11,306 nt of DNA. It comes from Planctomycetota bacterium. Its GTDB lineage: Bacteria > Planctomycetota > B129-G9. Below are positions 86 through 11,306 of the stretch, piece after piece. Below the pieces are notes generated by a model, which saw nothing but the letters and a program-made list of their open reading frames with translations, did no database searches and was not told the origin of the DNA. Position 1 is the stretch's first letter, and each line of letters starts with the position of its first letter. The position numbers were made by a program, and so were the translations under genes. Where the stretch lies: assembly GCA_003644325.1 (NCBI GenBank), contig QNCA01000018.1:1-11306 (forward strand), read 5' to 3'.

Positions 86-2314
86 ATGCCAAGACCGGAC
101 AGAATCAAGAAGGAACGCGCGCTGAGGCTCAGAAAACTCTACCAGGGCATGCTCGGCACGGAGTGCAAGGTACCCGTACGCGACAGGCTCGGGCTGAGCA
201 TGGTATATACCCCGGGCGTGGCGGAACCGTGCAGGGCAATACGGGACAACCCCGAAGAGGCATATACCTGTACATCCAAAGGCGAAAACATGGCGCTGGT
301 CTCAAACGGCAGCGACGTGGTTGACCTGGGCGACATCGGTCCCGCAGCGGTCCTGCCGATACTCGAGGGCGAAGCCGCGATGCTGAGCGAACTGGGAGGA
401 CTGAGCGTCTACCCGCTGTGCGTCACGTGCAAAAGGGTGAAGGAATTTCGCTTTCTCCTCGGCAACATCGCGCCCGCCTTCGGCGCGATAGCGGTGTTCG
501 GCCTGAACAAGGAATTGTACGACGAGATGGCCGACACGTTCGAGGCGGGCATACCGCTGATTCGCTATGAGGATGTGCTGGACCGTGTCTTCGCACGGCG
601 CAGCGGACTGACGCCCCGGCAGAAGTTCTGCGACTCATACATGGCCGTGCCGGGATTCTTCAACGCGCTTATCGCCTCGAGGGCCTGCGATGTTTCAAAC
701 GTCGTCTATTACGCCGCCGGCAGAGAGATAGAGGACACGCTGAAGTCTGTGAGCGGCTTCTCAACCCGGGTGGTCGATTTCCGCCTGGCCGAGCGCGTGG
801 CGCGGGTCTGCGCCGACGGCTTCAATGCCAGCGGCGCCGGCCAGGTCAAGGTTGACAGCGATGCACTGGCCGCTCGAATCCACAGCATCGTCTTTGAGAA
901 CCGCAACGCGACCGTTGAAATGCCGGAGGCGCCTTACGACGACGAGCACCTGATGCAGGCGGCGCTGGAAATGTACCGCAGGCACCGCGGCAGCATCCGT
1001 ACCCGGGCAAGAGCACGGATAGTGGACAGGTACTCGCTCGACGTCGTTGCGGGCCGCGGCGGCCTCTGGACCGCTGAAGAGATAGCCGCCGACCCTGACC
1101 TCGTATGGGATTACACCTCAAAGGGCAACACGGTGGCCGTTATATCCGACGGCAGCGCGGTGCTGGGGATGGGCAACATCGGCGGGACGGCCGGGCTGCC
1201 CGTGATGGAGGGCAAGTGCGTGCTCTTCCGGACGCTCGCGGGCATCAACGCACATCCCCTGGTTCTCGCGACACGGGATGCCGCGGAAATCGAAAAAATC
1301 ATCTCGATGACATCCCACACCTACGGCGCAGTGAACTTGGAGGACATAGGGGCGCCGAAGTGCTTTGAACTCGAGAGGAATCTCAGGGAAAAGATTGACA
1401 TACCCGTGTTTCACGACGATCAGCACGGCACCGCCGCGGTGGTGCTGGCCGGCCTGATAAACGCGCTCAGGCTGACCGGCAGGGACGCCGGCGGCTCCAC
1501 GGCGGCCGTGAACGGCGCGGGCGCGGCAGGGCTGACCGTCGCGCGCGCCCTGCTCAAGTACGGATTCAAGGACGTTGTTCTCTGCGACACGACCGGGGCG
1601 ATTTACGACGGCCGCGAAGAAAACATGAACGATGAAAAACGCGAAATGGCGAAACTGACCAACAAGGCAGGCATCAAGGGCGGTATCGCCGAGGCAATGA
1701 GGGGGCGCAACGTATTCATCGGCGTCTCCTCCAACGACTGCGTCACGAAAAAGATGGTGGCCTCGATGGCGGAGAATCCCATCGTGTTTGCGCTGGCGAA
1801 TCCCGTACCGGAGATCATGCCGGAGGTCGCCAGGGCGGCCGGGGCGAAGGTTATCGCGACGGGCCGGAGTGACTTTCCCAACCAGGTGAACAACGCGCTG
1901 ATATTCCCGGGGCTGTTCCGCGGGGCGCTCGGCGTGAGAGCCGGAGACATCAACGACGATATGAAACTTGCGGCGGCAAAGGCCCTGGCGGAGAGCATCC
2001 CGCAGACTGAACTGGACGCCGACCACTTCATCCCGTGCGCGCTGGACATCCGCGTGGTTCTCGCCGTGGCCGAGGCCGTGGCGCGCGCCGCCCTCGCCGG
2101 CGGCGTAGCCCGGACACGGCCCGACCCCCTGGAAATCAGTAACGCGACCGCAGCCTTCCTTTACGAAGGCCTGGACAGGGTGAAGGAGCCTCCGCCGGAA
2201 GCGCCAACCGCCGCCGCCGCCGAACCGGACGGAGGCGCGGAAACCGATGAAGAGGAAAAGGAATCGTCAGAACCGGGTGAGGCGGACGCAAGTCCGTTGA
2301 ATAAGGACGGCTGA
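86..2314 (+). CDS. Malic enzyme with degenerate N-terminal duplicate (742 aa)
   Basis: Likely catalyses oxidative decarboxylation of malate to pyruvate with NAD(P) in the cytoplasm. The ATG at 86 is preferred over an in-frame TTG at 17 because of the GGGGGAG Shine-Dalgarno just before it. Residues 300-690 form a complete malic enzyme: catalytic Lys377 (PVMEGK), metal ligands Glu419-Asp420 (NLEDI) and Asp444/445 (HDDQHGTA), Rossmann GAGAAG at 477-482, and the PGLFRGAL region near 608. Residues 15-270 look like a second, decayed copy. It has YTPGVAEP with Tyr41, then LPILEGE with Glu96 where lysine is expected, no DDQHG motif, no Rossmann GxGxxG, yet a PGFFNAL tail at 189. The 742-residue length mimics MaeB-type malic enzyme-phosphotransacetylase fusions, but no phosphotransacetylase domain is visible. 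The C-terminal 45 residues are Pro/Ala/Glu-rich and probably disordered. Malic enzyme identity is firm; cofactor choice and the role of copy 1 are inference. Confidence 0.93.
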   Translation: MPRPDRIKKERALRLRKLYQGMLGTECKVPVRDRLGLSMVYTPGVAEPCRAIRDNPEEAYTCTSKGENMALVSNGSDVVDLGDIGPAAVLPILEGEAAMLSELGGLSVYPLCVTCKRVKEFRFLLGNIAPAFGAIAVFGLNKELYDEMADTFEAGIPLIRYEDVLDRVFARRSGLTPRQKFCDSYMAVPGFFNALIASRACDVSNVVYYAAGREIEDTLKSVSGFSTRVVDFRLAERVARVCADGFNASGAGQVKVDSDALAARIHSIVFENRNATVEMPEAPYDDEHLMQAALEMYRRHRGSIRTRARARIVDRYSLDVVAGRGGLWTAEEIAADPDLVWDYTSKGNTVAVISDGSAVLGMGNIGGTAGLPVMEGKCVLFRTLAGINAHPLVLATRDAAEIEKIISMTSHTYGAVNLEDIGAPKCFELERNLREKIDIPVFHDDQHGTAAVVLAGLINALRLTGRDAGGSTAAVNGAGAAGLTVARALLKYGFKDVVLCDTTGAIYDGREENMNDEKREMAKLTNKAGIKGGIAEAMRGRNVFIGVSSNDCVTKKMVASMAENPIVFALANPVPEIMPEVARAAGAKVIATGRSDFPNQVNNALIFPGLFRGALGVRAGDINDDMKLAAAKALAESIPQTELDADHFIPCALDIRVVLAVAEAVARAALAGGVARTRPDPLEISNATAAFLYEGLDRVKEPPPEAPTAAAAEPDGGAETDEEEKESSEPGEADASPLNKDG

Positions 2315-2439: not shown

Positions 2440-2886
2440 CTAACCGCCGATTTCCGGCGAGGATGTGTCGGGAGGTGAGCCGTCGTTCGTGTACCTGATT
2501 AAGCCGGACTGGTCAACGTAGAAGCCGCGATTGCCGGTAAAGCCGGCGCTGTTGGGTACGGCGACGGCCGCCCATGTATCGCTGCCGGGCACCCCCGTGT
2601 CAGACACCGTATAGCCGCTGCATATCCCGGAACCCAGGGCCGGGTCAACACAGGGCGGAACGGCATCGCGGAGTTCGGCCAGTGTGCCGTAGCGGCCGAG
2701 TCCCTGGGTATTTCGGAAGATATCCTGTGCGCTTACCAGGGCCCTGAGCGATTGGATGGCGGCGGCTTCGTTCGCCGAGATTTTGGCCCGCACCAGGTTT
2801 GGTATTGAAATCGCGGCAATGATGGCGATTATCGCCACCACGATAATCAGTTCGACGAGCGTAAAACCTTTGTCGCGTGGGTTCAT
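2440..2886 (-). CDS. Type IV pilin-like / pseudopilin protein (148 aa)
   Basis: A small secreted protein with a class III signal peptide: the leader MNPRDKG is followed by FTLVEL, the prepilin peptidase cleavage and N-methylation site, with Glu at mature position 5. A hydrophobic helix (about residues 8-31) then anchors the subunit in the inner membrane and packs the filament core. The mature protein of about 141 residues continues with an amphipathic helix and a short beta-rich globular part containing two cysteines (CVDPALGSGIC) that may form a disulfide. The start at 2886 fits the usual short leader; an open frame extends further upstream but would bury the signal. AAGG lies 8 nt before the ATG. 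No other pilus assembly gene is in view, so it could be a major pilin, minor pilin or type II secretion pseudopilin. A sigma-54-type promoter lies upstream. Confidence 0.9.
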   Translation of the reverse strand: MNPRDKGFTLVELIIVVAIIAIIAAISIPNLVRAKISANEAAAIQSLRALVSAQDIFRNTQGLGRYGTLAELRDAVPPCVDPALGSGICSGYTVSDTGVPGSDTWAAVAVPNSAGFTGNRGFYVDQSGLIRYTNDGSPPDTSSPEIGG

Positions 2887-2940
2887 GGTTTTTGCCTTAT
2901 GAAGACGGCGTTGTGCGGGACGGTGGACACGCGGGCTACA

Positions 2941-2956
2941 CGCAAGTATTATGCCA
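2941..2956 (-). promoter_or_regulatory. Sigma-54 (-24/-12) promoter for the pilin gene
   Basis: On the minus strand the sequence reads TGGCATAATACTTGCG. This has the GG dinucleotide, exactly ten bases, then GC, matching the sigma-54 consensus TGGCACG-N4-TTGC at every core position except the CG of the -24 block. Transcription would begin near 2930, leaving a leader of about 44 nt before the pilin ATG at 2886. Sigma-54 with the PilR activator drives pilin genes in several diderm bacteria, and rpoN itself is encoded at 5527-6960. No activator gene is present in the window. Confidence 0.68.
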
Positions 2957-3091
2957 CGGGGTTGACGCATCTCCCGCGAAGCAAGCGGCCATCGGCAAGG
3001 CATTTTCCGATAAAATCTTACGGTTTGCGCGAATCCGACCGCGGCCCGGCGGTATGGGGCATTTTTGACCAATTGCGGCTCCCGGGCGGAC

Positions 3092-3111
3092 AACATTTGT
3101 CACTACATGTT
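3092..3111. promoter_or_regulatory. Imperfect dyad, possible activator (UAS) site
   Basis: The segment starts AACAT and ends ATGTT, giving a dyad with 6 of the 7 outer base pairs matched about a central point at 3101/3102. It sits roughly 170 bp upstream of the predicted pilin transcription start, a usual distance for enhancer-binding proteins acting on sigma-54 promoters. It could equally be a chance repeat or an operator for the PilZ gene. Confidence 0.25.
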
Positions 3112-3209
3112 CCACGGCTTGCGGCCGATAATAATGATAAGTTGCGCCGGAGAAATGTTTGCGTGTCCGGTCTCCCGGCGCTGGTTCCCGTTTAACAGGT
3201 TTGACAGAA

Positions 3210-3539
3210 ATGCCAGAAAAGGAAGAAAAAAGAAGGTACCGGCGCGTAAACGCGCCGGTCTATTTCTCATACACGCCGCTGCTGTCGCGTCCCGCCGCTC
3301 CCCGCGACATCAGCCCGGGCGGACTGCGCATGTATTCTGATGAGAAAATCAAAGAGGGCAAACTGCTTGACCTCACCATTACCCTCTCGGACGGCCGGTT
3401 TATCGAGTGCCGCGGGCAGGTCATCTGGGCCAAGAAACTCCCGCCCGGTTCCCCCGCCAAATACGATATCGGCCTCGGCTTCCTGGCCCTGTCCAAAGCC
3501 GATGAAGAAATCCTGAGCGAGTACCTTGCCGACTACTGA
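3210..3539 (+). CDS. PilZ-domain c-di-GMP-binding protein (109 aa)
   Basis: A small cytoplasmic single-domain protein predicted to bind cyclic di-GMP. The PilZ signature is complete: an RxxxR motif at residues 8-12 (RRYRR) and DISPGG at 33-38, matching (D/N)xSxxG, followed by the beta-barrel strands (LLDLTITLSDG, GQVIWAKK, YDIGLGF) and a short C-terminal helix. The ATG at 3210 puts the RxxxR motif near the N-terminus as in stand-alone PilZ proteins; a TTG 51 bp upstream is a weaker alternative. The ribosome binding site is poor (AGG 11 nt before ATG). PilZ proteins commonly adjust motility, pili or exopolysaccharide to c-di-GMP level, and its divergent pairing with a pilin gene suggests such a role. 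The effector partner cannot be told from the sequence. Confidence 0.88.
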   Translation: MPEKEEKRRYRRVNAPVYFSYTPLLSRPAAPRDISPGGLRMYSDEKIKEGKLLDLTITLSDGRFIECRGQVIWAKKLPPGSPAKYDIGLGFLALSKADEEILSEYLADY

Positions 3540-5526: not shown

Positions 5527-6960
5527 TCAGTATTCCTTGCGTCGGCGGGAGGATGGAATGCGCATCGTGCAGCGGTACTTGGTGATGGTGCGGCGGGCGA
5601 CGTTGAAGCCCATCTCTTTCAGTCTTTCGGCGATTTCGTCGTCGCTCAAGGGGTTGGATTTGTCCTCGTTGTCGATGATGTCCTTGACGCGCTGCTTGAC
5701 GCTCATGCGCGACTCGACGGTGCCGTCTTCGGCGGTGGTACCGCCGGTGAAGAAGAATTTGAGCGGGAAGATTCCGCGCGGGGTCTGGGCATATTTGTTC
5801 GAGATGGCGCGGCTGACCGTGGAATTGTGCACGCCTATGGCCTCCGCCACCTCCTGCATCTTGAGCGGCTTGAGGTGTGTGATGCCCTTGTCGAAGAAGT
5901 CGCGCTGGATTTCAATCACTTTCTTTGCGATTTTGAACAGCGTGGTGCGGCGCTGTTCGATGGCGTCGATGAGCCACCGGGCGCTGTCGAGTTTCTTGCG
6001 GACAATCTCACAAATTCTTGGGTTGTTTTTTTGCTCCTTGAGGAGCGCGTGGTAGGACGGGTTGACATATATGCGCGGCAGATAGTCGTCCTCCAGCCGG
6101 ACTTCGTACTCGCCGTCAACACAGGTAACAACGACGTCGGGATTGACGACAGGCGCGGAAGCGCCCGCATACAGTCCGCCCGGGCGGGGATTCAACGCGC
6201 TTATCATGCGGATGCATTCCTTTACCTCGTCAATGCTGCGACCGGTTTCCTTGGCGATCTTGGGGAAGCGGTTCAGTTCGATGTCCTTGAGATGGTTTTC
6301 GATGAGTTCATGCTCGAAGGAGGCGGCGTGGCCGTTTTCCGCGAGTTGCAGCAAGAGGCACTCCTTGAGGTCGCGCGCGCCGATGCCCGGCGGGTCCAGG
6401 CTCTGGACGGCGCGCAATGCTTTCTCCCCCATGGTGAACAGGACCGGCAGGTCGATGGATTCCAGTATGTCCTCCAGGCTGTACTGCAGGTAGCCGTCGT
6501 CGTTGATGTTGTAGATGATGTATTCGCCGATTTCCCTGATGCGGGGGTCGAGTTCGAGCAGGCTGAGTTGCTGAAAGAGATAATCCTGCAGGGAGATGGG
6601 ACGGCTTTCGGCGTTTTTCATCGCCTCCATTTTGCCGTGGCCGTCGTCGTCGGCGCGGCGCGGGCGGCGGGTGTAAAAGTTATCCTCCAGCAGGGACTCT
6701 TCAAGTTCGTTCACCACTTCATAGTCCGGCTGCTCACGCTTGCGTTCCAGTTGCGCGTCGGACGGCGGTTCGGGGGCGTATTCCTCTTCCGGTTCCCGGG
6801 GTTGCTCGATTTCAAGAACGGGGTTTTCCTCCAACTCCCGCGTGATGAGGTCCTGCAAATCCAGCGCGGGTAGTTGAAGGATTTCGATGGATTGTATTAT
6901 TTGCGGAGCAAGTTTGAGTTTCTGCTCCAGCCGCTGCCGTAATATGAGATCCATCTTCAT
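5527..6960 (-). CDS. rpoN: RNA polymerase sigma-54 factor (477 aa)
   Basis: Alternative sigma factor that recognises -24/-12 promoters and needs AAA+ enhancer-binding proteins to open DNA. Region I (residues 1-55, Gln/Leu-rich, e.g. RLEQKLKLAPQIIQSIEILQ) and an acidic region II (about 55-105, Glu/Pro-rich) precede the core-binding domain (about 110-300). The helix-turn-helix MQEVAEAIGVHNSTVSRAIS begins at residue 368, and the RpoN box ARRTITKYR lies at 455-463 near a basic C-terminus. All family parts are present and the length is normal. The ATG overlaps the recR stop as ATGA, implying translational coupling; a second ATG two codons on is possible. It is last in the leftward run ybaB-secreted protein-recR-rpoN, unlike the usual lptB-rpoN-hpf-ptsN setting. 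The pilin promoter at 2941-2956 is a plausible local target. Confidence 0.97.
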   Translation of the reverse strand: MKMDLILRQRLEQKLKLAPQIIQSIEILQLPALDLQDLITRELEENPVLEIEQPREPEEEYAPEPPSDAQLERKREQPDYEVVNELEESLLEDNFYTRRPRRADDDGHGKMEAMKNAESRPISLQDYLFQQLSLLELDPRIREIGEYIIYNINDDGYLQYSLEDILESIDLPVLFTMGEKALRAVQSLDPPGIGARDLKECLLLQLAENGHAASFEHELIENHLKDIELNRFPKIAKETGRSIDEVKECIRMISALNPRPGGLYAGASAPVVNPDVVVTCVDGEYEVRLEDDYLPRIYVNPSYHALLKEQKNNPRICEIVRKKLDSARWLIDAIEQRRTTLFKIAKKVIEIQRDFFDKGITHLKPLKMQEVAEAIGVHNSTVSRAISNKYAQTPRGIFPLKFFFTGGTTAEDGTVESRMSVKQRVKDIIDNEDKSNPLSDDEIAERLKEMGFNVARRTITKYRCTMRIPSSRRRKEY

Positions 6961-7556
6961 AGTTCAGTGCGTCCTTCAAGCGCGTCGGACAGGATACTTT
7001 TCCCCGCCAGTTTCACTCTGCCCCCGGAGGGGATGCCGCGTGCCAGCCGGGTCACCTTTACGTCGAGCCCGGCCATTTCTTGCGCCAGGAACATGGCCGT
7101 GCCGTCGCCTTCCATGTCCGGGTTCGTGGCGAGGATGACCTCGCGGAACTCTCCGCTCTTCACGCGTTCGAGCAGGCGGCGGATAGTCAGATTTTCAGGA
7201 CCTTTGCCCTCCAGCGGCGCCAGGCGCCCGCGCAGAACGTGGTACAGCCCCCTGTAAGCGCCGGTGCGCTCTATCGCCGTGACGTCCTGGTAGGTTTCCA
7301 CCACGCATAGCAAGGTACGGTCGCGCGACCTGTCGCGGCAAATCCTGCATTCGTCCTCGCCGCTTATATTATAACATTGTTTGCATTCTTTTGCATCTCT
7401 TTTCATGTCGCGGATTGCCCGGGCGAGTTCCATGGTCTCTTCTTGCGGGGCGTCGAGCATGTGGTAGGCGAACCGCTCCGCGCTGCGAGCGCCCACGCCG
7501 GGCAGCTTCTCCAACGCCTTGATGAGCCTTTCGACCGGTTCCGCGTGTTCGTTCAT
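6957..7556 (-). CDS. recR: Recombination mediator RecR (199 aa)
   Basis: DNA-clamp-forming protein of the RecFOR pathway that helps load RecA on gapped or single-stranded DNA. A helix-hairpin-helix lies at about residues 10-30 (LEKLPGVGARSAERFAYH), then a Cys4 zinc finger (Cys58, Cys61, Cys70, Cys73), then a Toprim domain from about 81, with ETYQDV and NPDMEGDGTAMFLA, ending in TRLARGIPSGG and a C-terminal LSDALEGR. Length is standard. A weak GGGA lies 9 nt before the ATG. The gene starts 35 bp after the stop of the large secreted protein gene and overlaps rpoN by 4 bp. RecR usually follows ybaB directly; here the two are separated by 3.4 kb. The AT-rich stretch around 7365-7400 is simply the zinc-finger coding part. 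Confidence 0.97.
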   Translation of the reverse strand: MNEHAEPVERLIKALEKLPGVGARSAERFAYHMLDAPQEETMELARAIRDMKRDAKECKQCYNISGEDECRICRDRSRDRTLLCVVETYQDVTAIERTGAYRGLYHVLRGRLAPLEGKGPENLTIRRLLERVKSGEFREVILATNPDMEGDGTAMFLAQEMAGLDVKVTRLARGIPSGGRVKLAGKSILSDALEGRTEL

Positions 7557-7591: not shown

Positions 7592-10500
7592 TCAGTCGAA
7601 CGAAAGTCCGGTTATCCCAAGGTATTCATATTCGGGTACGTAGTGCGCATTCATCTTGTTGTTGCCGGGATTCCAGATGATCTTTATATGCTGATTGGTG
7701 TAGAAGGGTACCGGGCCGGTGGGACTGGCACCGTCCAGGGAGAGTTTTTGCAGTTTCAGGTAAACGACGATCTTGACCTTTTTACGATTAATGCCCTTGG
7801 GCACCTTGAATTCCTTTATGTGGCTGTTGGGGAATTCGTCGTCGTGCGAGTCGTGGCTGAACCATTGCTTTTTTGTTGACCAGAGGACCCGGCCCTTATT
7901 GTTCTTGTCCGTGCCGATTATTTGTATAAGGTCCACGCGGACGGACGTTTTGTGCTTATCGACGCCGGGGATGAAGAGTGTGGGTCCGAGGTTTTGCCTG
8001 AGCGTCTTAAACGCGGTGTCGAACGCCGTGGGCACCTCGTTGCTCGATTCGGGCTCGTCTTCCAGGGTTTTCTTTAGTTTTATGAGTTTTCTACCGACCT
8101 TTACCGCGGTTTTTCCCCACTTTTTCCAGCCCTTGCGCGGGGATGACTTTTTCTTTACGGTAATTTTCCCCGAGACGGCGTGCATTTCATAAGCAAGGCC
8201 CTGGACGCCTGTGTAAAGCGAGAGGATTTCGTCCTTCTTCGGGTTGTAATCGACGCGCAGGCCCGCTGCGAAGATGCCGTACCATGCGTAGGCGTTCATT
8301 GAGGGATAATTCATGAAACCGGGGAAGTGGGCCTCCGCGGTCCACGGCACATACACGTTGATGATGCCTATATTCTTCGGCGCGTCCTTGGGGTCGCACA
8401 GGTAGATGTTGCATGTTTCCTCGTAGCCGGCCCGTGCGGAGAATTGTTGCGAGAAAGCGGGCTTGCCGGGCGCCACGGCGCTTATCTTCCAGGAAACCGT
8501 GCCCTTGATTGCGTCGCCGCGCTCGATTTTCGTCCGCCATTTATTGTTGCTGTCCTTGTACCTGACCGTTTTTCTCCTGTAACCTGTCAGTGTGATTGTG
8601 AATTTCCCGGTTTCGTCCGAGGTAGTCGCGTACTGCGGTTGAGGAGCGTTGTCGTCGTTTCCCCAGCCGGCCTGTCTGAAAGTTATCGTGGTGTTTGGGA
8701 CGGGGTCGCCGTACATGTCGCAGACCCGGCCGCTAACGATAGAGTAGGTGGCCTCCTCCAGGGTAACGGCGATGGATGTCGTCCGGCCGAGATTTATCTG
8801 AACATCGGTATTCTGGCAGGGAACGTAACCGGGTGATTTTATTTTGACTTTGTATTTACCGGCCGGCACGTCGGCGACGAACTTTCCGGATTCGCCCCTT
8901 TCGGCGTCGATGTTGCTGAACTTGCCGCCCGAAAGCATGACCTCACACCTCTTCAGGGCTTTTGCGGGTTTTACCTCTACCTCGAACCTGCCGTGGTTGT
9001 CCAGTTTATCGCCGACTGTTGCAACAGGGATTGCCTTCGAGAGTTTGCGGTCGTCTTCGACGGCGTTGTAGCCCGCCTTTTCGATTTTGACGTGGTAGTT
9101 GCCGAACGGCACGCGGTCGAATTCGTAGTAGCCCCGCCTGTCCGTGGTAGATGTTTTGCTATAGCCGGGTGCGGTAAGCGTTACTTTCGCGCTTTCCAGG
9201 GGAAGCCAGTCGATGACGCCCAGCGAGCCGTCTTGAACGTAACCGCGTACCATGCCCTTGTCCCAGACAGGCAATTTGACGCTTATCGTGTTGTTCGCAC
9301 GGGTAAACTCTTCGTTCCTCTTTTCGGGGTCGAGTTTAATCTGAACTTCGATTTCTTTCGTCTGAACCTTTTCGGGGACCGTCCACTTTAATTCCGCCGT
9401 CACCCTGTGGCTAAAATGGATGATGGAGTCGATTGAGCCGGATGCTACCTTCTTGTTTTGATAGTACATCTCGATATTACACTTCTTCGCCGTCGCGAGA
9501 CCACGATTGTCCACCGGTATCCTGAGCAGTTGCGAGCATCCGAGTATGCCCCTGGGCGGGTACTTCTCGATTTCGCAGGGGTTGACGAAAAGGTCGGACT
9601 TCCTGGGGATGCCGCCTTTGAGTACTGTGGCCGATTTGACGTTCAGGTCGCCGTCCAACTTGTACAATAGCGCACCGCCGAATGCCGCGCTGCCGATGAC
9701 GGCCAGACCGTCACCGTAGTTGAAGATATGGCTGGCACCCAGCCCGAGGGTTTTCGTCCTGCCATTTTGTTCGAGCATCTTGCCGTAGATGGGCCGGACG
9801 GCGATTTTCTTCAGGCCTTTATCGCATTTTATTATTGCGACGGAGTTGATCTCCTTCGGGATGCCTTTCTTGCGGAACTTGAACTGCCCGTCGGTGGAGA
9901 AGATATACCGGCCGTTGTGAAGAGCAACGGCGGGGATGACGGAATCGTGCCTTTCTTTCTCCCTGAATTCGCTGAAGTAGTCGTAGAGATTTACAGCGGG
10001 GCCTTTCTTTTTCCAGTTTGCGTCGAAGATCTGCGCGATGTGATCGCCCCACAGGTATTCTCTTTTGATCGCGTTGTAAATCAGGCAGAATTCCTTCTGT
10101 GCGGGGTTGTAAACAACGTGAGGCGCGGTGGGATACAGGGCGTCTTTGGGCGTATCCAGCGGCAGCATTTCACGGTGGATTCTGTGCGCGAAAAACCGCT
10201 CCTCTCCGTCTATTTTGTGTTGGGTCTCCACGACGGTCATTTTGAATATGCCGTGCCGTGTTTTCTTCTTCGCGTCTCTGTATTTATAGGCATACAGGAC
10301 GTAAATCCTGCTATTTGCCTTGACCAATGCAGGGCTGCAACCGTAATCTATAAAGACCGGCCGCCTGTAGAGCGGTTTCAGGTCCTTGTCGTATTTCATA
10401 AGAAATACGGCGTGTTTGTGGTCCCAGCAGTCGAAAGCAAGGTAGTAGTTCTCGCCGTCCTTCAGAACGTCAAACAGTGCAAGGCTGTGTTTCTCGACAT

Positions 10501-10966
10501 ACGGGGGAAAACCGAGCAGATGCAGGCCAAGGTCGGGGCTGGTTATGAAATTGAGGTCCTTGTCATAGTGTTCGACATAGATATTGCCGTTGCTCGATGA
10601 TACGACAAGACCGCTGATGAACAAATATATCCCTCCGTCCGGCGCGGGTATGGCCTTGAAATAATCGGCGCCGCCTTCCTCCGATCCGAGCCTTTCGAAG
10701 GGGCTTTTCTGAAAGGCATCGTATCCCCACTCGGGTACTATCGGGAAGTCTTTCCACCCCGGCGCAATTATGTCCGCATCCTCACCGGTGGGCTTGCCTT
10801 TTTCATTTCCTATGGCAAAAAGCGGCTTTCCTGCAACATCGTCCTGTCCGTCGTCAACGGACGACACCACTTCCGTCAGGGAGCAATTCGGCGCCGCCGC
10901 AAGAACGCCCAGCAAAACGAAGAAAAGGAGAATGGTGCGTGAAAATTTGCTGACGTTTTTCATCAT
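7592..10966 (-). CDS. Large secreted protein: propeller-like, CARDB, Carboxypeptidase-reg repeats (1124 aa)
   Basis: I do not recognise a named family; function unknown, probably exported. Residues 1-25 form a signal peptide (basic start, then TILLFFVLLGVLAAA). A cysteine follows (APNC) but it is not a good lipobox, so lipidation is doubtful. Residues about 80-470 contain a recurring strand-turn motif (YDKDL near 133 and 190, FDANW near 312, CDKGL near 380, LDGDL near 435), suggesting a beta-propeller. A CARDB-like adhesion domain at about 480-567 ends with EEFTRANN. Three carboxypeptidase-regulatory/CnaB-like beta-sandwiches follow (about 570-640, 668-738, 741-858; note DRRGYYEFDRVPFGNYHVKI and DETGKFTITL). 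The last 265 residues are unassigned, with a Lys-rich patch near 938-970. GGAGG lies 4 nt before the first ATG and 7 nt before a second. GC is visibly lower than its neighbours. It interrupts ybaB-recR. Confidence 0.85.
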   Translation of the reverse strand: MMKNVSKFSRTILLFFVLLGVLAAAPNCSLTEVVSSVDDGQDDVAGKPLFAIGNEKGKPTGEDADIIAPGWKDFPIVPEWGYDAFQKSPFERLGSEEGGADYFKAIPAPDGGIYLFISGLVVSSSNGNIYVEHYDKDLNFITSPDLGLHLLGFPPYVEKHSLALFDVLKDGENYYLAFDCWDHKHAVFLMKYDKDLKPLYRRPVFIDYGCSPALVKANSRIYVLYAYKYRDAKKKTRHGIFKMTVVETQHKIDGEERFFAHRIHREMLPLDTPKDALYPTAPHVVYNPAQKEFCLIYNAIKREYLWGDHIAQIFDANWKKKGPAVNLYDYFSEFREKERHDSVIPAVALHNGRYIFSTDGQFKFRKKGIPKEINSVAIIKCDKGLKKIAVRPIYGKMLEQNGRTKTLGLGASHIFNYGDGLAVIGSAAFGGALLYKLDGDLNVKSATVLKGGIPRKSDLFVNPCEIEKYPPRGILGCSQLLRIPVDNRGLATAKKCNIEMYYQNKKVASGSIDSIIHFSHRVTAELKWTVPEKVQTKEIEVQIKLDPEKRNEEFTRANNTISVKLPVWDKGMVRGYVQDGSLGVIDWLPLESAKVTLTAPGYSKTSTTDRRGYYEFDRVPFGNYHVKIEKAGYNAVEDDRKLSKAIPVATVGDKLDNHGRFEVEVKPAKALKRCEVMLSGGKFSNIDAERGESGKFVADVPAGKYKVKIKSPGYVPCQNTDVQINLGRTTSIAVTLEEATYSIVSGRVCDMYGDPVPNTTITFRQAGWGNDDNAPQPQYATTSDETGKFTITLTGYRRKTVRYKDSNNKWRTKIERGDAIKGTVSWKISAVAPGKPAFSQQFSARAGYEETCNIYLCDPKDAPKNIGIINVYVPWTAEAHFPGFMNYPSMNAYAWYGIFAAGLRVDYNPKKDEILSLYTGVQGLAYEMHAVSGKITVKKKSSPRKGWKKWGKTAVKVGRKLIKLKKTLEDEPESSNEVPTAFDTAFKTLRQNLGPTLFIPGVDKHKTSVRVDLIQIIGTDKNNKGRVLWSTKKQWFSHDSHDDEFPNSHIKEFKVPKGINRKKVKIVVYLKLQKLSLDGASPTGPVPFYTNQHIKIIWNPGNNKMNAHYVPEYEYLGITGLSFD

Positions 10967-11000: not shown

Positions 11001-11306
11001 TCAGAGTAATCCCGGCAGGTTCAGCCCGCCGGTGAGTTTTGACATTTCCTTGTTGGCCATTTCCTTTGCCTTGCGCATGCCTTCGCGCACGGCGGCTGTT
11101 ATAAGGTCTTCTAGCATCTCCACGTCTTCCGGGTCCACCACGTTCTTGTCTATCTTGACCGCGAGGAGTTCCTGTGCGCCGTTCACGTTCACGACGACCA
11201 TCCCGCCGCCGGCCTTTCCCTCAACGACGCGGTTCTTCAGGTCTTCCTGAATCTTGGCCATCTCCTGCTGCATCTTCTGCGCGTGCTTCATTATGTTGCC
11301 CAGGTC
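11001..11306 (-). CDS. ybaB: YbaB/EbfC nucleoid-associated protein (5'-partial)
   Basis: Small DNA-binding protein of the YbaB/EbfC family, a homodimer associated with the nucleoid. An internal ATG at 11291 would give 96 residues, but the frame stays open to the window edge and reads DLGNIMKHAQKMQQEM, matching the usual family N-terminus (xLGNxMKQAQKMQ), so the true start lies beyond the window. The N-terminal helix, the GKAGGGMVVVNVNG beta region and the C-terminal helix with MSKLTGGLNLPGLL are all family-typical. ybaB normally lies between dnaX and recR; dnaX is probably just outside the window. The stop lies 34 bp before the start of the secreted-protein gene, which carries its own strong GGAGG. 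Confidence 0.93.
   Translation of the reverse strand, partial: DLGNIMKHAQKMQQEMAKIQEDLKNRVVEGKAGGGMVVVNVNGAQELLAVKIDKNVVDPEDVEMLEDLITAAVREGMRKAKEMANKEMSKLTGGLNLPGLL

Follow-up and report, generated by a model that had tools for sequence, protein, structure and literature searches.

The window, by which we mean the whole stretch of 11,306 nucleotides that was analysed, belongs to assembly G000, a Planctomycetota MAG of 2.28 Mb in 471 contigs. Near its start lies a gene for a protein of 742 aa (86..2314, + strand), the frame of which runs without interruption from an ATG at 86 to a stop at 2314, with the sequence GGGGGAG upstream of the start at 74-80. The whole protein scores 105.6 bits with the malic model (PF00390) and 79.3 bits with Malic_M (PF03949), against curated cut-offs of 23.1 and 23.5. 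PF00390 matches in two stretches, each copy separately exceeding the cut-off (43.3 and 54.4 bits vs 23.1), which confirms the proposal of the initial annotation that two malic-enzyme copies reside in one chain; PF03949 matches once, at residues 448-669. A model search of the window's own assembly, which is 79.7% complete, returned two PF00390 matches, both inside the 86-2314 frame, and no others; nor did a search at E 0.001 give any further match, in this approximately 80% complete assembly, that might represent a second malic enzyme supplying the missing parts.

Copy 1 (residues 1-282; 86..931, + strand), as delimited by alignment with 45 single enzymes, consists of an N-terminal arm, a remnant of the substrate domain and C-terminal helices, and is without an NAD domain; the cut at residue 282 is our own choice. 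Copy 2 (residues 283-690; 932..2155, + strand) comprises a substrate domain, an NAD domain and C-terminal helices, as indicated by PDB matches, the best being 5CEE, and by the Malic_M match. It is followed by a partly acidic, Ala/Pro-rich C-terminal tail (residues 691-742; 2156..2311, + strand), placed by an alignment of six double enzymes, the end of which is absent from the five double-enzyme relatives.

The set of residues characteristic of the superfamily (Tyr, Lys, Glu, Asp, Asp) is present in the chain with all five members, Tyr41 belonging to copy 1 and the remaining four to copy 2. Tyr41 (206-208) is part of the motif YTPGVAEPC, which is identical in all six double enzymes and lies in a segment (residues 21-67; 146..286, + strand) that is the counterpart of the swapped, entangled segment of small malic enzymes, its boundaries having been transferred from the GK to GNF interval given in PMC11944484. 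At the position of the catalytic lysine the column alignment places Glu96 (371..373, + strand); copy 1 of the six double enzymes has E,E,E,Y,Y,M in this column, and 45/45 single enzymes have K. The metal columns of copy 1 are occupied by Phe138/Gly139 and Glu162 in the window protein, and 120 of the 156 NAD-domain invariant-column cells are gaps in the six copy 1 sequences. Copy 2 has a degenerate arm (residues 302-348; 989..1129, + strand) in which the alignment puts Ala322 (1049-1051) in the tyrosine column; the residues here are A,A,A,F,F,F across the six copy 2 sequences, and the Phe so placed in the second family adjoins an alignment gap. Copy 2 also holds, all on the + strand and all unchanged in 6/6 double enzymes, the catalytic lysine Lys377 (1214..1216), the metal ligands Glu419-Asp420 (1340..1345) and Asp445 (1418..1420), and the nucleotide-binding motif GAGAAG (residues 477-482; 1514..1531) of the sole NAD domain.

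The loss is reciprocal in all six double enzymes: copy 1 has kept the tyrosine and lost the lysine, copy 2 has lost the tyrosine and kept the lysine together with all three metal ligands, so that each copy is incomplete in 6/6 and the arrangement of small homodimers, with one complete residue set per copy, is found in none. In the aligned single-copy enzymes (45 of the 46 loci fetched), all five residues are kept in 45/45; the one left out, L012, had been missed by the motif filter, and its Tyr motif is present. The alignment bears out every residue call of the initial annotation (Tyr41, Glu96, Lys377, Glu419/Asp420/Asp445, GAGAAG, and no tyrosine at the equivalent position of copy 2), and the conservation check that it had proposed for Tyr41 gave a tyrosine in copy 1 of all six. 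Tyr316 was considered as a replacement tyrosine; it precedes the Tyr column by six residues, the double enzymes have Y,A,Y,A,A,E at its position, and, being both outside the column and variable, it is no substitute for the catalytic residue.

A search for the same double architecture, also suggested beforehand, was productive: it occurs, with the same residue split, in 6 of 392 sampled Planctomycetota genomes, forming two families. The genome searches covered 99 relatives (cut-off E 0.001), 392 Planctomycetota genomes (cut-off E 1e-100) and, with a second query, 391, the draws overlapping; diverged double enzymes beyond the 1e-100 threshold could escape the 392-genome count. Family 1 comprises the window's genome, G001 and G002, the latter two encoding proteins 75% and 50% identical to the window protein, and family 2 comprises G013, G097 and G080, with 45-47% identity across the matched part. 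Three of the four genomes searched from the window's class have the double enzyme, as do three of the nine searched from the class of the second family, which is a different one. The carrier genomes are MAG-like drafts of 140-471 contigs, and at E 0.001 these six assemblies (73-91% complete) gave no further malic-enzyme matches, the three match rows in G080 all lying within one gene. A pattern scan of genome contigs with copy 1 matched only L031, a Planctomycetota MAG with a protein identical to that of G001, from the window's genus. A second scan of viral contigs for malic enzymes gave 10 loci, 9 of them on contigs found before.

Small malic enzymes that form entangled dimers include those of phytoplasma (5CEE), Thermotoga (TM0542, 1VL6), Pyrococcus (PH1275, 2DVM/1WW8) and Entamoeba (EhME, 3NV9), to which the core of copy 2 is homologous. 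For the phytoplasma enzyme, Alvarez et al. in 2018 reportedly found Tyr36 to be supplied by the other protomer and the Y36A variant to be inactive. This enzyme is the best PDB match by sequence, and its residues 27-84 match copy 1 residues 9-66, across the Tyr motif. For the Entamoeba enzyme, PMC11944484 describes a chain that from GK (45-46) to GNF (90-92) threads the other monomer, the distance between Tyr65 of one chain and Lys120 of its partner being 2.8 A, and its authors state that the entangled form appears inherent to prokaryotic enzymes. Similarly, a swapped helix of Bdellovibrio MaeB supplies Y52 from the opposing monomer (PMC7902834). These two structures agree with the statement in the initial annotation that the tyrosine may come from the partner subunit. 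Because the tyrosine of small malic enzymes serves the partner's site, a fused pair has two possible composite sites; one of them has every part here, and the other is without Tyr, Lys, metal ligands and NAD domain. A chain of the small entangled dimers carries a single copy, and the dimer has two composite sites that are equivalent, whereas the double enzymes have two unequal copies and the residues for one site.

MaeB is comparable in total length and its malic-enzyme part forms the same swapped dimer, but its additional, regulatory domains are phosphotransacetylase domains (PMC7902834), whereas the second part here is another malic-enzyme copy. Pfam at E 0.01 gives malic and Malic_M only, with no phosphotransacetylase domain in the 742-aa protein, and the match to NCBIfam PRK12861 is limited to profile positions 6-410 of 764 (376.7 bits vs a cut-off of 1178). 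The large-subunit enzymes of metazoans likewise have one complete site per polypeptide, each monomer with its own site, an arrangement that PMC11944484 credits to insertions, as opposed to the two-copy fusion seen here.

The two copies differ in which of their parts are conserved. In profile scores against the single enzymes, columns 31-50 are enzyme-like in copy 1 and unlike in copy 2; from column 71 onward every block of copy 2 has a positive score and copy 1 scores lower almost throughout, with exceptions or near-exceptions at columns 81-90, where copy 1 of the window's family is fairly enzyme-like, and the C-terminal columns 381-400, where copy 1 is not uniformly worse. The 9 cross-family pairs show 53.0% identity over residues 9-52 of copy 1 and 26.0% over its remainder, as against 18.8% for the arm and 54.8% for the core of copy 2. 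Column permutations reached the arm/remainder difference of copy 1 and the core/arm difference of copy 2 in 0 and 0 of 20000 trials, and the excess of the copy 1 arm over the copy 2 arm in 1 of 20000. Among single-enzyme pairs with a core identity of 0.40-0.62 (827 of 990, the pairs not being independent), arm identity has a mean of 0.428 and a minimum of 0.286, so that the copy 2 arm falls below this range.

With the Entamoeba boundaries (columns 24-70), identity between families is 0.50 for copy 1 and 0.22 for copy 2, and the part containing the tyrosine (columns 31-51) gives 0.73 for copy 1 and 0.18 for copy 2. No stretch of copy 1 is better kept than the Tyr loop (columns 41-50), with 87% identity from one family to the other. 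The copies do not differ in columns 52-70, which still belong to the swapped segment (0.30 vs 0.26), and in the next domain (columns 71-170) the values are 0.30 for copy 1 and 0.59 for copy 2. Counted as cells of invariant columns, copy 1 has kept 48/54 in the swapped segment, 76/216 in the substrate domain and 5/156 in the NAD domain, the corresponding numbers for copy 2 being 18/54, 194/216 and 153/156. The C-terminal helices of copy 1 are partly kept (44/90 invariant cells); together with the missing NAD domain, this would fit a mate that still packs against or interlocks with copy 2 and for which NAD binding has become dispensable.

For the window protein and that of G001, dN/dS is 0.177 in copy 1 and 0.171 in copy 2, and for G013 and G097 it is 0.188 and 0.108. 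Within copy 1, the arm has the higher value in the window/G001 pair (0.296, remainder 0.160) and the lower in the G013/G097 pair (0.076, remainder 0.222), so that dN/dS does not single out the arm. The description of copy 1 as decayed, given in the initial annotation, holds for its core and fails for the tyrosine arm, and copy 1 as a whole evolves at the dN/dS values of 0.177 and 0.188 just given. The best reading of these sequence comparisons is that copy 1 is a constrained tyrosine donor and not a relic. The distribution of arm matches among the 99 relatives is neutral evidence, as 18 rows (from 17 other genomes) that match copy 1 in the arm only are balanced by an equal number, 18 further rows, that continue through the copy 2 arm.

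Two further peculiarities concern the surroundings of the swapped segment. The GK motif lies where the chains cross, and its lysine (column 24; window residues 22 and 303) is present in 98% of single enzymes and absent from both copies in 6/6 double enzymes; perhaps the fusion changed the crossing. In the double enzymes L004, L005 and L006 (family f12), copy 2 reads PVMLGK in place of the PVMEGK of 45/45 single enzymes, the Glu thus being replaced by Leu in copy 2 and still present as Glu in copy 1. The corresponding Glu of the Entamoeba enzyme touches the GK motif and the partner's helix, according to PMC11944484.

We favour, and consider likely, a process in which duplication and fusion of a small, entangled, homodimeric malic enzyme preceded the loss of one of its two sites, leaving one composite site per chain. 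In the ancestral dimer, each subunit would have inserted its Tyr segment into the pocket of the other, giving two composite sites. Duplication and fusion would have been followed by loss of one of them: the retained site would combine Tyr41 of copy 1 with Lys377, Glu419, Asp420, Asp445 and the NAD domain of copy 2, and the dismantled one would be represented by Ala322 in copy 2 and, in copy 1, by Glu96 and the lack of metal ligands and NAD domain. Copy 1 would serve as tyrosine donor and structural mate, and each chain is predicted to have one site and to act as an NAD(P)-dependent decarboxylating malate dehydrogenase. We infer that the protein is catalytically active, that the tyrosine is donated within the same chain, that the cofactor is NAD(P), and that fusion preceded loss. 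An internal pseudo-heterodimer in which copy 1 donates the tyrosine had been put forward in the initial annotation, and it gains support from the reciprocal loss in 6/6, from the switch in conservation between the copies within the segment that is swapped in homologues, and from the published structures.

Tyr41 might instead reach into copy 2 of a second molecule, with fused chains pairing such that the site is composite between chains. The sequence pattern would be identical for donation within or between chains, but both halves of one ancestral dimer are already present in a fused pair, which makes donation within the chain the simpler assumption, and we regard the intermolecular version as unlikely. 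More improbable still is that copy 1 serves as a regulatory or structural domain and that some other acid stands in for the tyrosine when copy 2 works. Most catalytic parts are indeed missing from copy 1, and regulatory domains are known from MaeB, where they are phosphotransacetylase domains (PMC7902834), yet the best-kept stretch of copy 1, the Tyr loop, is exactly the piece that copy 2 is missing, and Tyr316, as a candidate for the other acid, is not conserved. A regulatory copy 1, which the initial annotation had offered as its other option, thus leaves the pattern unexplained as a sole role and is conceivable as an added one. That the protein has ceased to be a malic enzyme, that the gene is dying, or that the gene is an assembly error is the least probable of all. 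The draft nature of every carrier genome (MAG-like, 140-471 contigs) would allow for it, but the frame is open, the same architecture recurs in 6 genomes of two families, dN/dS is 0.11-0.19 for both copies in two pairs, and copy 2 retains nearly all NAD-domain invariant cells (153/156).

Under the preferred reading of a fused dimer with one remaining site, the number of fusion events has to be considered. In a tree from shared columns, the copy 1 rows form one group (100/99, with long branches flagged), as do the copy 2 rows (93/84). In trees of copy 2 and the single enzymes with the Tyr columns removed, the copy 2 sequences of the two families do not form one group in the best tree. In the tree of all rows, L014 joined copy 2 on a long branch; this single-copy malic enzyme from Planctomycetota is divergent, its branch being very long (1.3-1.5 changes per column), and has kept its catalytic residues. 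After removal of L014 and 15 near-copies (including the double enzyme L005) the best tree still splits the two families, and a single group was not rejected (p-AU 0.258). The trees are compatible with one fusion or two, and the common architecture with the same missing domain suggests one. The differing replacements in the two families indicate that the residues of the second site drifted or were lost separately; given Ala/Glu in one family and Phe/Tyr-Met in the other, the dismantling of the second site may even have happened independently in each.

We would give about even chances to a more specific version, in which the double enzyme is a natural single-chain form of an interlocked homodimer, the chain of copy 1 threading the core of copy 2 so that the monomer is deeply entangled or knotted, with one of the reciprocal sites fixed and the other released. 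The structure was also predicted, as the initial annotation had proposed. AlphaFold2 reached a pLDDT of 66.4 and a pTM of 0.54 with a 9-row alignment (A2, run 1), and 71.7 and 0.74 with a 15-row alignment (A5, run 2), the Tyr arm having pLDDT <50 in both. A5 includes N-terminal pieces of six single enzymes that MAFFT put on copy 1 and then continued on copy 2, and with pieces spanning both copies the run 2 model leans toward a mosaic. An alignment with shorter single-enzyme pieces (A6), which looked misplaced at 18-28% identity, was left out of folding. In structure comparisons, the ten human ME2 entries listed align with the run 2 model from residues 26-30 to 695-700, and the same ten begin at residues 85-87 in the run 1 model; in the alignments shown, among the matches listed, human ME2 chains are 25-27% identical. 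A start at 26-30 is as expected for the arm of copy 1 lying on the core of copy 2. These alignments were given no weight, as they show just where the aligned stretch starts and ends, and the arm has pLDDT <50.

In a limited search of the open-access literature (titles and starts of abstracts, among the matches listed), there was no report of a fused malic enzyme with divided catalytic residues. A swapped composite site is known, and its fixation in a single chain with one site appears to be new. The double enzymes amount to a natural complementation experiment, in which sequence alone reveals which parts of each copy matter, and the parts still kept map onto the segment that is swapped in crystal structures. 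They show how a symmetric dimer with shared sites could become a one-site single chain by a route unlike the metazoan insertions, and are candidate examples of an entangled dimer fused in nature. They also make it testable why composite sites persist, a point that PMC11944484 calls unclear for its own enzyme. For annotation they carry a warning, as either copy judged alone looks inactive.

Elsewhere in the window, past the malic enzyme gene (2440-3539), a protein with an N-terminal methylation motif (type IV pilin-like, - strand) adjoins a PilZ-domain protein (+ strand). Further downstream lie recR (6957-7556, - strand), a gene for a 1124-residue protein (7592-10966, - strand) and a YbaB/EbfC gene (11001-11291, - strand). 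The recR and YbaB/EbfC genes are usually direct neighbours; here they are separated by the 1124-residue protein, which has an N-terminal signal-like stretch and carboxypeptidase-regulatory-like domains.
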